Source of the DNA: an uncultured Alphaproteobacteria bacterium
GTDB taxonomy: Bacteria > Pseudomonadota > Alphaproteobacteria > Bin95
Reading direction: 5' to 3'
Assembly: GCA_937891825.1 (NCBI GenBank)
Contig: CALAHN010000028.1
Location: forward strand, 1 to 48,739
DNA length: 48,739 nucleotides
The notes below the pieces were generated by a model that saw only the letters and a program-made list of their open reading frames with translations, ran no database searches and was not told where the DNA came from. A program made the translations under genes and the position numbers. Shown here in pieces: positions 34,363 through 38,812 of this stretch (position 1 is its first letter; the number at the start of each line of letters is the position of its first letter).

Positions 34363-35070
34363 TCACGAAAAATATCGCGCTGCGATGCTTGCAGGATCGC
34401 CCAGATCCGCGGGGGCGCCTTCAGCCCGGATGCGGCCGCCGCCCAGAATGACAGCGCGGCCCGCCCGCCGGAGCGCATGGCCGATGTTCTGTTCGGCGAG
34501 GAGGATGGCGACGCCCTCGGCGCGGATGAGGTCGATCGCCTCGAAGAGCGCCGCCGCCGTCATCGGCGCGAGGCCGAGCGACGGTTCATCGAGCAGCAGC
34601 AGGCGCGGCCGCCGCATGAGGGCGCGGCCGATCGCCAGCATCTGCTGTTCGCCGCCGGATAGGCGCCAGCCCTCAGTCCGCCGCCGGGCGGTCAGCGCGG
34701 GAAACAGCGCATAGATTTCTTCCATGCGGCTCCGGCGCGCCGCACGTCCCTCATCCGAGACCGTGAGCAGGTTCTCATTCACCGTCAATCCTGGGAAGAC
34801 GCGCCGCCCCTCGGGCGCAAGGCCGACGCCCTGACGGGCGACGCCGCTCGGATCGCCCAGGAGCAAGGGCGCCTCGCCCAGCATGACCCTGCCGGATGTC
34901 GGCCGCGCCAAGCCCATGACGACGTTCAGAAGGGTCGATTTTCCGGCGCCGTTCGGCCCAAGCACGGCGACCATCTCGCCAGCCCCGACAGTCAGGGAGA
35001 TCGGCCCGAGCCACGGCGACGCGGGCGGTCCTGCCACGATGTCGGTCAGGCGGAGAAGCGGCGGGCTCAT
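34363..35070 (-). CDS. ABC transporter ATPase, LivF type
   Basis: A 235-residue ABC ATPase of the branched-chain amino acid (HAAT) transporter class. Walker A GPNGAGKST, the LSGGEQQ signature and Walker B LLLLDEPSLGLAP are intact. The ATG at 35070 forms an ATGA overlap with the permease-ATPase gene. It is the last gene of a four-gene transporter operon headed by a TPP riboswitch, so the substrate is more likely thiamine-related than an amino acid. Confidence 0.9.
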   Translation of the reverse strand: MSPPLLRLTDIVAGPPASPWLGPISLTVGAGEMVAVLGPNGAGKSTLLNVVMGLARPTSGRVMLGEAPLLLGDPSGVARQGVGLAPEGRRVFPGLTVNENLLTVSDEGRAARRSRMEEIYALFPALTARRRTEGWRLSGGEQQMLAIGRALMRRPRLLLLDEPSLGLAPMTAAALFEAIDLIRAEGVAILLAEQNIGHALRRAGRAVILGGGRIRAEGAPADLGDPASIAARYFS

Positions 35071-36659
35071 GGCGGCGTCGCTCCGATATAGGCCTCGATC
35101 ACGGCGGGATCGGCCAGAACCGCCGCGACCGATCCGTCGGCGATCACCCGCCCGCTGGCCATGCAGATCAGCCGCCCGCACAAGTCCGACAGGAACGGCA
35201 CGTTATGCTCGACGATCAGGACCGCGAGCCCGTCTGCGGCCGCCTGGCGGATGCATCGGGCGAGCCGCAAGCGTTCGTCTTCGGTCAGCCCGGCAGCCGG
35301 TTCGTCCAGCAGGAGCGCCGAGGGCCGCGCCGCCCGCGCCCGCGCGATTTCGAGGAAGCGCTGCTCCGCCTGGGTCAGCCGCGCGGCGGCGACGTCGGCC
35401 CGCGCGGCGAGCCCAGCTTCGGCGAGCGCTTGCTCCGCCGCGGGGCCGCGGGCCGCCGCCCAGACATTCTCCCGCGCCGAAAGTCCAGGGACCAGGTGCG
35501 GCGTCTGGAAGGTGCGGCCGACCTTGCCGCCGGCGGGCAGGCGAACGGCGCCGGCGGTCGGCCGATCGACCCCCGACAGCAAGTTGAGCAGCGTGGACTT
35601 GCCGGCGCCGTTCGGTCCCATCAAGCCGACGATGCGCCCGGGCTGAAGCGCGAGGCTGACTGCATCGACGGCGGTCAACCCGCCGAATTGCCGGGTCAAG
35701 TCGTCGCCGGCCAGCGCCGTCGCCGCGGGGTCGTAGCCGTGCGGCCGCAAGCTCGTCTCTGATGATGCGGGCAGTGGCGAGGAAGGCGGCCGGAACGGCC
35801 GGCGGCGGCGCCAGATACGGCCTAAGGGCGCCGCCGCCGTCGCGAGGCCTTCCGGCAGGAACAGCACGGCCGCCAGCAGCGCCGCGCCATAGGCCGCCAG
35901 ATAGCTTTGCTCCAGAAAGCGAAGCTGCTCCGGCGTCCAGACCGCCAGGATCGCCAGCAGCGCCGCGGCGAGCGGGCTTCGCCTTCCGCCGACGATCACG
36001 ACGACGAGGATCGCCGCCATGCCCTTGAAGGCCAGCGCGTCCGTCGATGCGACGCCGACCGTGACCGCATGGGCGGCCCCGCCGAGCCCGCCGGCCGCGC
36101 CGCCGATCGCCATGGCCGCGATTCGTATCCGCCGCGCATCGATGCCGAAGGCCCTGGCCGCGAGCGGCGCCGAACGCAACAGCGCGAGCCGTTCCGCCCC
36201 AGCCCAGGCCCGGAAGCCATAGAACAGCAGCCCGGCGGCGCCCGCGAGCGTCCAGGCGAAGGCGGCGCGGCGGGCGGGCGGGTCGAGCCAGCCCGGCAAG
36301 CGCTCGGCGAGCATGCCGTTCGCGCCGCCGGTCACGCTTTCCCAGTTGGTCGCGATCAACAAGGCCAGCTCGGCGAGCGCCAGGGTCGCCAGCGCGAAAT
36401 AGTGGCTCTCCAGCTTGCCGACGATGCAGGTGAAGGCTGCCAGGGTCAAAGCCGGAAGCAGGAGCGCCGCGAGCACGGCCGGCGCCAGCGGCAGGCCGTA
36501 CTGAACCGGCAGCAGGACGGTGACATAGGCCCCAAGGCCGACGGCCGTTCCGGCGGCGAGCGAAAGCGCGCCCGCCAGGCCGAAGACGATCTGCCAGCCG
36601 ATGGCGCCGGCGGCGAGCGCCCCGGCGAGCGCCAGGAGATGCAGCTCATAGGCGCTCAT
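35067..36659 (-). CDS. Fused ABC permease (LivM type) and ATPase (LivG type)
   Basis: A 530-residue fusion. Residues ~1-315 are a LivM-like permease with about nine hydrophobic segments; ~325-530 form an ABC ATPase with Walker A GPNGAGKST, Walker B ALLLDEPAAGL and the terminal RLICMASGRVIADG. The signature motif is degenerate (LTQAEQ instead of LSGGQ), so ATP hydrolysis at that site may be weak and LivF may carry more of the work. The ATG at 36659 overlaps the LivH stop (ATGA). Confidence 0.9.
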   Translation of the reverse strand: MSAYELHLLALAGALAAGAIGWQIVFGLAGALSLAAGTAVGLGAYVTVLLPVQYGLPLAPAVLAALLLPALTLAAFTCIVGKLESHYFALATLALAELALLIATNWESVTGGANGMLAERLPGWLDPPARRAAFAWTLAGAAGLLFYGFRAWAGAERLALLRSAPLAARAFGIDARRIRIAAMAIGGAAGGLGGAAHAVTVGVASTDALAFKGMAAILVVVIVGGRRSPLAAALLAILAVWTPEQLRFLEQSYLAAYGAALLAAVLFLPEGLATAAAPLGRIWRRRRPFRPPSSPLPASSETSLRPHGYDPAATALAGDDLTRQFGGLTAVDAVSLALQPGRIVGLMGPNGAGKSTLLNLLSGVDRPTAGAVRLPAGGKVGRTFQTPHLVPGLSARENVWAAARGPAAEQALAEAGLAARADVAAARLTQAEQRFLEIARARAARPSALLLDEPAAGLTEDERLRLARCIRQAAADGLAVLIVEHNVPFLSDLCGRLICMASGRVIADGSVAAVLADPAVIEAYIGATPP

Positions 36660-37528
36660 GCCCGCCGGCCCACGGATTCGCCGGCGAGGCCCTGGGGGCG
36701 GAAGGCGAGCAGCAGGATGAAAGCGCAGTAGAGCGCGCCCTCGGCGATCGCATGGCCCATGAGCGCCGCCCCGATGGTTTCGAAAAGCGCGATCAGCAAG
36801 GCCGCCACAGCCGTCGGCAGGATGCGGCCCCACCCGGCGACGGTCGCGGCGATGTAGGCCTTCAGGATGTAGTCGGCGCCGGCCAGGGGTGTGGCGAAAT
36901 GCTGGCTGGCCAGGAGAATGCCGGCAAGGCCCGCGAGCGCGCCGCTCGCCGCGAATGCGCCAAACGCCAGCTTGAGCACGGGAATGCCATGGCTCAAGGC
37001 GATATCCGGGTCTTCCGCCGCGGCGCGGAGCCTTCGGCCGATCTGCGTGCCCAGCAGGATGAAGGCGGCGAGCCCGAAAGCTGCGGCCGCGAGCGCGATG
37101 CCGGTCGCCGCCGCGGCTGAGACATACAAAGCGCCGATATGCCAGCCGCCGCCGGCGAAGGCGTCCGTCGCTTGCGGCGCGCCGCCGAATGTCGCCGTCA
37201 GTCCGTTCTGGATGATGACGCCAATGGCGATGGCGGCGATAAAGGTCGTCTCAATCGGTCGGCGGCGCAGGGGGGCCCATGCGAGGCTGGCGACGGCGAG
37301 GCCGAGCCCGCCGCCGGCGATCAGGGCGAGGCCGATGCTCCAGCCGCCGCCAATGCCCAGAGACCCCGCGGCGATCGCGGCATAGGCCGCCGCCACGGCG
37401 ACGTCGCCATGGGCGAAGTTGATCGCGCCGGCGGCCCGCAGGGTCAGTGCGAAGCCCAGCGCCAGCAGCCCGTAGGCCGCGCCGAGCGCCACGCCATTGA
37501 ACAACAGTTGAAGCGTCAGCGCTTCCAA
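36656..37528 (-). CDS. ABC transporter permease, LivH type
   Basis: A 290-residue inner-membrane permease of the branched-chain amino acid transporter class with about eight hydrophobic helices. It opens LLFNGVALGAAYGLLALGFALTL and has INFAHGDVAVAAAYAA, the LivH hallmarks. It overlaps the permease-ATPase fusion by 4 bases and follows the binding-protein gene by 21 bases. Confidence 0.9.
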   Translation of the reverse strand: MEALTLQLLFNGVALGAAYGLLALGFALTLRAAGAINFAHGDVAVAAAYAAIAAGSLGIGGGWSIGLALIAGGGLGLAVASLAWAPLRRRPIETTFIAAIAIGVIIQNGLTATFGGAPQATDAFAGGGWHIGALYVSAAAATGIALAAAAFGLAAFILLGTQIGRRLRAAAEDPDIALSHGIPVLKLAFGAFAASGALAGLAGILLASQHFATPLAGADYILKAYIAATVAGWGRILPTAVAALLIALFETIGAALMGHAIAEGALYCAFILLLAFRPQGLAGESVGRRA

Positions 37529-37549
37529 GATTTGCCTGGCCCGGCGCCC

Positions 37550-38719
37550 CTAACGCCCGTCGGCGGCGAAGCGGTAGCGCTTGGCGATCCGCGCCCTGTG
37601 GGACTGCCCGTCATAGCAGACGATAACGGCATCGTGCGCCATGTCGCCCTTGCCGTTGGATGCGTAGGTCATCGCCGCGCCGTTGAAGCTGCCGGACGTC
37701 AGCGCTTGCCGGGCGGCCTCGGGCGTGTCGGCGCCGGCCTCTATGACCGAAGCGAGCACGGTGAAGGCGTCATATTCGGCGAGCGCGAAGGCGTCGGGTT
37801 CGGTCTCGAACCGGGCGCGGTAGGCTTCGGCGAAGGCAAAGGCGGGACCTTCGGTTTCCGCCGCCGGGGCGGACCCGCTTTCGGCGCAGACGCCGGCGAG
37901 CATGTCCGGCGTGAGCAAGGCTGCCGTGGTGGGTTGATGCATGGCGGAGCCGGCGACGATCGGCAGGGTCATGCCGGCCTCCCGCGCTTGCCGGATCGTC
38001 AATGCAGTCGGTCCGGCATGCAGGTGGAGCAGCACCCCGTCGGCGCCGCTGGCCTTGACCTTGGCCAAGGCCGCCGAAACATCCTTGGCGGTCGGCGGCA
38101 GGCCTTCCTCGTAAACCGGCCTGACGCCAAGCTTCGCCAGAGCCGCCGCCAACTGGGCGCGGCCGCTTTGGCCGTAGGCCGTGGTCTGGTAGAGGATCGC
38201 CGGGCGCTTCATGCCCACCTCACTGACGGCATAGCTCGCGTGGGCGGTTTTGACGACCGCATCGCCGGGGAAGAAGCGGAAGATATTCGGGCTGCCCATT
38301 TCGGTCAGCGCCGCTGTGCCGGAGATCGTCAGGATCGGGACGCCCGCCTGGTCCGCCAGCGGCAGGAGCGCCAGCATCTGCGAGCCGAGGATCGGTCCAA
38401 GCACGCCCGGCGGCGCGCCGTCCCTGAGCGCGCGGCGGAAGGCGCTGATGGCGACGTCGGGCGCGGTCGTCGTGTCCTGGACGTCGGCGTCGAAGGCTAT
38501 AGGGCCCTTGGCGCTGGCATGCTCCGCCGCCAGCACAGCGCCGTTGCGCTGGGCGCCGCCTTCGAGCGCGAGGAACCCGGTGATCGGTGCGAGGACCGAT
38601 ACCACGACTGGCTCCGCCGCGGCGCGATGGCCGGTAAGGGCCAAGGCCGTCAGGATAAGCGTCGCGGCGCCTACGAAGCGCAATTTCCATTGAATACAAA
38701 TCGTCAAGCGTAGCGTCAT
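37550..38719 (-). CDS. ABC substrate-binding protein, LivK/Peripla_BP_6 type
   Basis: A 389-residue exported binding protein (signal peptide with cleavage near HRAAA, about residue 35; a long n-region precedes the hydrophobic core). The lobes carry APITGFLALEGGAQRNGAVLA, GVLGPILGSQMLALLPLADQAGVP and ALAEYDAFTVLASVIEA, typical of type I periplasmic-binding proteins of HAAT transporters. It is the first gene after the TPP riboswitch, and its ATG (38719) lies nine bases from a GGGAG that is part of the aptamer. The ligand is inferred to be thiamine-related. Confidence 0.88.
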   Translation of the reverse strand: MTLRLTICIQWKLRFVGAATLILTALALTGHRAAAEPVVVSVLAPITGFLALEGGAQRNGAVLAAEHASAKGPIAFDADVQDTTTAPDVAISAFRRALRDGAPPGVLGPILGSQMLALLPLADQAGVPILTISGTAALTEMGSPNIFRFFPGDAVVKTAHASYAVSEVGMKRPAILYQTTAYGQSGRAQLAAALAKLGVRPVYEEGLPPTAKDVSAALAKVKASGADGVLLHLHAGPTALTIRQAREAGMTLPIVAGSAMHQPTTAALLTPDMLAGVCAESGSAPAAETEGPAFAFAEAYRARFETEPDAFALAEYDAFTVLASVIEAGADTPEAARQALTSGSFNGAAMTYASNGKGDMAHDAVIVCYDGQSHRARIAKRYRFAADGR

Positions 38720-38723
38720 AACG

Positions 38724-38812
38724 CCGTTCTCCCTTCGCTGGCATTATCCAGAGCAGGTTCGACGGGTGCTTCTCAGCCGCGCACAACGCGCGGCGCCCCA
38801 GCCGGCAGACCC
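38724..38812 (-). promoter_or_regulatory. TPP riboswitch (THI element) controlling the ABC transporter
   Basis: Read on the minus strand, the conserved THI blocks occur in order: GGGGCGCC, a perfect P3 hairpin (CCGCGC-GTTGT-GCGCGG), CTGAGA, ACCC, GAACCTG, TGGATAATGCCAGCG and AAGGGAGAAC. GCCG before and CGGC after can close P1. AAGGGAG is also the ribosome site of the binding-protein gene (ATG 38719), so TPP binding would hide it directly and block translation. Edges are approximate. The known function of this aptamer is binding thiamine pyrophosphate. Confidence 0.93.

Follow-up and report, generated by a model that had tools for sequence, protein, structure and literature searches.

The 48,739-nt window analysed here (all of contig CALAHN010000028.1, assembly GCA_937891825.1, from an uncultured alphaproteobacterium) carries on its minus strand a four-gene operon of the ATP-binding cassette (ABC) importer type, headed by a thiamine pyrophosphate (TPP) riboswitch aptamer (Table 1). 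A periplasmic binding protein is followed by a LivH-type permease, a fusion of a LivM-type permease with a LivG-type ATPase, and a LivF-type ATPase; with one PF13458 binding protein, two PF02653 permease parts and two PF00005 ATPases in one operon, the system belongs to the HAAT type. The open reading frames of the fusion and of the LivF-type gene open upstream of the tabulated starts (at 36833 and 35181, respectively); the starts were judged from aligned orthologs, and each shares the preceding gene's stop codon in an ATGA overlap. The Pfam matches and these overlaps bear out the overlapping gene order of the original prediction, which was made from the DNA letters without database searches. 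The binding protein, whose N-terminal signal region spans residues ~1-36, matches PF13458, PF01094 and, weakly, PF13433, and no other Pfam family, so that PF09084 (NMT1/THI5) is not among its matches. Scores against the NCBIfam Liv models lie under their curated cutoffs (LivH, 71.2 vs 379; binding protein, 68.8 vs 477; LivF, 175 vs 441). The best-scoring NCBIfam models for LivH, LivG and LivF are Urt models, also under their cutoffs (UrtB, 103 vs 250; UrtD, 134.5 vs 304; UrtE, 178.8 vs 285.8).

Table 1. Features of the TPP-aptamer-headed operon (window coordinates).
Feature	Coordinates	Strand	Basis
TPP riboswitch aptamer (THI element)	38712..38810	-	RF00059 match and both-sided pair changes
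Shine-Dalgarno sequence AAGGGAG within the aptamer's final conserved block	38729..38735	-	9 nt upstream of the ATG at 38719
Periplasmic binding protein, HAAT type I (Peripla_BP_6)	37550..38719	-	PF13458, E 2.1e-45
Permease, LivH type, TTG start	36656..37528	-	PF02653, E 7e-32; syntenic orthologs
Permease-ATPase fusion, LivM-LivG type	35067..36659	-	PF02653, PF00005 and PF12399; ortholog starts
ATPase, LivF type	34363..35070	-	PF00005, E 2e-30; ortholog starts

The aptamer matches RF00059 over the full length of the model (positions 1-105) at 61.3 bits, against a gathering threshold of 54.3 (E 1.1e-9; Rfam), and is the window's sole Rfam match. Its structure is kept in an alignment of 23 homologous leaders, in which seven of 17 pairs are changed on both sides; these compensatory changes support the fold. 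(The minimum free energy of the single sequence was discarded as evidence for the aptamer: at a z-score of -0.19 it is no different from that of shuffled sequences.) The last conserved block, GCGAAGGGAG, includes the AAGGGAG of the binding-protein gene. Both a complete aptamer on the minus strand and the location of the ribosome site within its last conserved block had been predicted, and both hold. The same layout, with the start codon following immediately, recurs in the other members of the genus and at loci L041, L044, L046 and L051. Because the aptamer holds the ribosome site in all of these, with the start codon directly behind it, control is likely to be exerted by direct masking of the ribosome site in the TPP-bound aptamer, a layout that is familiar for THI elements. 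When TPP is scarce, the leader would leave the ribosome site accessible, allowing synthesis of the binding protein, both permease parts and both ATPases; with TPP bound, the aptamer would close around AAGGGAG and translation would stop.

Chance pairing of aptamer and operon is excluded by the rarity of TPP aptamers in the source assembly, which has just two in 4.3 Mb (99.97% complete), and by the recurrence of the pairing. Each of the five genus genomes has two TPP aptamers, one of them at the head of the binding-protein gene; four of the genomes show the complete four-gene order, the contig of the fifth stopping after the binding protein. Other genomes, too, hold Liv-type operons behind TPP aptamers. 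A scan of genome contigs with the binding-protein profile yielded matches confined to the genus; a class-wide search, in which a profile of the five genus binding proteins was run against 385 alphaproteobacterial genomes, reached further and found orthologs in 30, 28 of them outside the genus (E 1e-101 to 1e-153 for the latter), with the four-gene order conserved among the orthologous operons. A TPP aptamer lies directly upstream of the binding-protein gene at 20 of these 28 loci, a count made up of 17 matches above the cutoff and three just below it (48.6-53.4 bits) in the same place; the remaining eight loci have no TPP aptamer even in wider flanks. Azospirillum plasmids with an ortholog have the aptamer in all four cases checked.

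The predicted structure of the binding protein (AlphaFold predicted local distance difference test score, 92.4; Azospirillum rows excluded from the prediction) is closest, among solved folds, to Thermotoga LivK TM1135 (Z 43.8) and Streptococcus LivJ (Z 43.4); binders of aromatic acids, amides and urea rank just below them. In the branched-chain amino acid-binding proteins, Ser79 of LivJ holds the amino-acid carboxylate and Glu226 (Asp in 3td9 and 4gnr) holds the ammonium. The pocket comparison aligned 33 family binding proteins with 3td9, 4gnr, 4obb and a LivJ sequence. The equivalent of Ser79 is Gly112 in 33 of 33 and that of Tyr18 is Glu53, also in 33 of 33; the equivalent of Tyr202 is His234 in 32 of 33. 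The ammonium-binding acid aligns with a nearly invariant Ser258, an assignment that is slightly less certain, being anchored by the PIVAG/GD block (HMMER) where MAFFT places a gap. Neither the carboxylate-holding nor the ammonium-holding residue of LivJ is found, and the binding pocket, as judged from these alignments, is conserved but differs from the amino-acid pocket.

The genus lacks genes of thiamine synthesis. ThiC is found in none of the five genus genomes, and ThiG is represented there by partial matches only (85-95 columns, in longer proteins), with none at E 1e-20 in the source genome; ThiE-type and ThiD-type proteins are retained (in G010, ThiD as a fragment only). TPK is absent from all 32 genomes tested. 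Outside the genus, 13 of the 20 aptamer-linked genomes lack both ThiC and ThiG, four have ThiC only, one has ThiG only and two have both. ThiG is absent from 17 of these 20, vs two of the eight genomes without the aptamer (Fisher p 0.005); the corresponding value for ThiC is p 0.4. With the aptamer link conserved, the amino-acid signature lost and the host without synthesis genes, the operon quite probably specifies a high-affinity HAAT-class (LivKHMGF-like) ABC importer of a vitamin B1-related solute, repressed by TPP. Its cargo would be thiamine-related, as predicted, and neither a branched-chain amino acid nor any other alpha-amino acid. With the ThiG and ThiC branches gone in the genus and ThiD and ThiE kept, ThiE would join the imported pieces, and a ThiL-type kinase, of the kind seen in a relative, G098, would phosphorylate the product.

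Several observations weigh against this assignment. The association of the aptamer with the absence of ThiG is bound up with phylogeny (a phylogeny-corrected test had just two independent pairs on supported branches and hence no power) and is suggestive only. Two TPP-linked genomes carry both ThiC and ThiG. Orthologs without an aptamer share the pocket residues in all eight cases, and ThiG is present in six of the eight genomes. Two further points come from G098, which has neither ThiC nor ThiG and of which 2.02 of 2.7 Mb (75%) was read, with E. coli (or genus) queries only: ThiM was not seen in this portion, which weighs against a free thiazole alcohol as the solute, and neither was ThiK, which, together with the general absence of TPK, weighs against free thiamine.

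The nature of the solute is best approached through a comparison of the genus (g1) with its sister genus (g2). In g2, ThiC is absent and ThiG present in all four genomes tested; there is no ortholog of the Liv-type binding protein, and the one TPP aptamer per genome stands before a ThiXYZ operon, which has the ThiY-like motif in the three loci read. In g1, which lacks both ThiC and ThiG, there are two TPP operons, the Liv-type operon and one second system: either ThiXYZ as in g2, with the ThiY-like motif (G011), or LuxE-LuxC-ATPase-permease-NMT1-SDR (G000, G010, G012 and G013). In G013 the two TPP operons share a contig, where they converge tail to tail and are separated by a single PilZ gene. 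On this pattern the pyrimidine is unlikely to be the only substrate, and the thiazole side, or whole thiamine or thiamine phosphate, is favoured. Thus, where the original prediction named thiamine, thiamine phosphates and a pyrimidine or thiazole precursor without choosing between them, the comparison of genomes narrows the choice: the solute is more likely to be on the thiazole side, or to be thiamine or a thiamine phosphate, than to be the pyrimidine, and most probably carries a thiazole moiety, as a free thiazole compound, thiamine or thiamine monophosphate (TMP).

Uptake of the thiazole half only (hydroxyethylthiazole, or an oxidised or carboxylated form of it), with ThiXYZ or the LuxE/LuxC-linked ABC system bringing in the pyrimidine and ThiE joining the two, is a special case of B1-related import that has a real, if less than even, chance of being correct. 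It fits the loss of ThiG and possession of the operon in g1 and the converse in g2, the four genomes that have ThiC and the operon without ThiG, the two TPP-controlled importers of G011, which is without both branches, and the retention of ThiE and ThiD. It fits less well with the failure to see ThiM, whether in the portion of G098 that was read or at the other loci examined; with the TPP-linked genomes that have ThiG (two together with ThiC, one without it); and with G098 itself, in the scanned part of which the Liv operon is the sole TPP-like site and no ThiB, ThiP (ThiBPQ) or NMT1-type importer was seen, though both branches are missing. The gene set of G098, which in the part read includes ThiD, ThiE and ThiL, instead leans toward thiamine or TMP as the solute there, and for this reason the second special case, uptake of whole thiamine, TMP or TPP, is kept at similar weight, as a possibility to be taken seriously and not yet as a probable one. 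Whole thiamine suits every combination of missing ThiC and ThiG, including that of G098, where the operon is the sole recognised B1-type importer in the portion scanned and ThiL would finish imported TMP; however, free thiamine would be left without an obvious kinase, TPK and ThiK being missing as described above, and the kept ThiD and ThiE suggest that separate halves are used.

Uptake of the pyrimidine half, as hydroxymethylpyrimidine or formylaminopyrimidine, is improbable. ThiC is missing throughout the genus (five of five genomes) and from 14 of the 20 TPP-linked genomes outside it, and several homologs adjoin the genome's pyrE, but four genomes that have ThiC and lack ThiG keep the operon, and G011 already has ThiXYZ, with its ThiY-like motif, under its second TPP switch; the pyrE copies are these genomes' only strong matches, hence housekeeping genes, and were set aside as a hint of a pyrimidine solute. 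Some other solute (an aromatic acid, urea or an amide, for example), linked only indirectly to TPP, is likewise unlikely: HAAT binding proteins of close fold do take 4-hydroxybenzoate, urea and amides, but the TPP aptamer is conserved at the operon across many families, alongside losses of thiamine genes. An ordinary branched-chain amino acid importer under TPP control is hardly credible, since, for all its LivK/LivJ-like fold and family, the RefSeq annotation of the Azospirillum permeases as such and the conceivable benefit of importing the products of the TPP-dependent acetohydroxyacid synthase when low TPP limits that enzyme, both zwitterion-holding residues are lost in all or nearly all homologs and the LivH and LivK model scores are far under the NCBIfam cutoffs.

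The proposed B1-related importer shares its protein families, its K-H-M-G-F order and its type I binding-protein fold with LivKHMGF and other HAAT branched-chain amino acid importers; it differs from LivKHMGF in the fusion of LivM with LivG, the loss of the amino-acid-binding residues and TPP riboswitch control. Like the ThiXYZ (NMT1/THI5-type) pyrimidine importers, which are found in the same genus and family, it is a TPP-riboswitch ABC system, but the ThiXYZ binding protein is of the NMT1 family and the permease is BPD_transp_1, whereas the binding protein and permeases of the operon are of other families. E. coli ThiBPQ, too, is a TPP-controlled ABC system, importing a B1 compound, with binding-protein and permease families that differ from those of the operon. 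The original remark that known thiamine ABC systems are of other families is therefore confirmed by Pfam for ThiXYZ (NMT1, PF09084) and, for ThiBPQ, agrees with general knowledge. UrtABCDE and the AmiC-type amide receptors are HAAT-class systems with non-amino-acid ligands, and LivH, LivG and LivF score best to Urt, although all Urt scores are under the curated cutoffs; we know of no riboswitch link for systems of these types.

No description of a TPP-controlled Liv-type operon was found in the open literature (RegPrecise and most subscription papers lay outside the search, and a prior listing there is possible). In a 2013 survey of TPP regulons, 19 orthologs are counted as transporters of thiamin and precursors, and the term "branched-chain" is absent from the main text (PMC3766115). 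The RefSeq names of the Azospirillum operon genes are generic only. If these operons are B1 importers, their annotation as branched-chain amino acid transporters would cause B1 uptake to be overlooked in many uncultured Alphaproteobacteria, and models of vitamin exchange would misjudge auxotrophies. We suggest, tentatively, that they form a HAAT-class B1 importer family, widespread in Alphaproteobacteria, that is specific to the thiazole half and runs parallel to a second TPP-controlled system, ThiXYZ or LuxE-LuxC-ABC-SDR, that would handle the other half. Importers of the pyrimidine and of thiamine are known; to our knowledge, no dedicated bacterial ABC importer for the thiazole half has been established, and if the thiazole half is indeed the solute, this gap would be filled. 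The family is present in culturable Azospirillum, and is thus directly testable.

In the genus and in Azospirillum lipoferum 4B, a TPP aptamer also precedes the operon LuxE-LuxC-ABC importer-SDR, in which the importer has an NMT1-type binding protein. A. brasilense has the aptamer with LuxE and LuxC, and a Pantoea dispersa plasmid has LuxE-LuxC-SDR without the ABC genes. The loci concerned are L003 7194-13194 (on C135 of the source genome), L004 3825-9774, L118, L119 and L120. LuxE, LuxC and SDR together could convert a carboxylic acid to an alcohol; such a conversion would suggest that an oxidised thiamine moiety is salvaged. The literature search found no paper on such an operon.

A ThiE-like gene (L021 4868-5554; also L022-L024) ends a transketolase-GAPDH-aldolase cluster in the genus, despite the missing ThiC and ThiG. 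In 11 of the 28 relatives (L065, L066, L067, L070, L071, L076, L078, L081, L086, L089 and L091), pyrE lies near the Liv-type operon, downstream and on the same strand; the gap is very short or nil in some, and pyrE of L081 could be co-transcribed under the TPP switch. In two relatives lacking the TPP aptamer (L084, 9523-10614; L085, 5107-6423), the gene upstream overlaps that of the binding protein and resembles, by eye, a pyridoxal phosphate-dependent threonine aldolase/beta-eliminating lyase. Genes for DMT-family transporters, which may be further thiamine-related transporters, adjoin the TPP-Liv operon in Azospirillum (L092 and L093; annotated) and thiD in several TPP-linked genomes (L104-L108 and L113; by eye).

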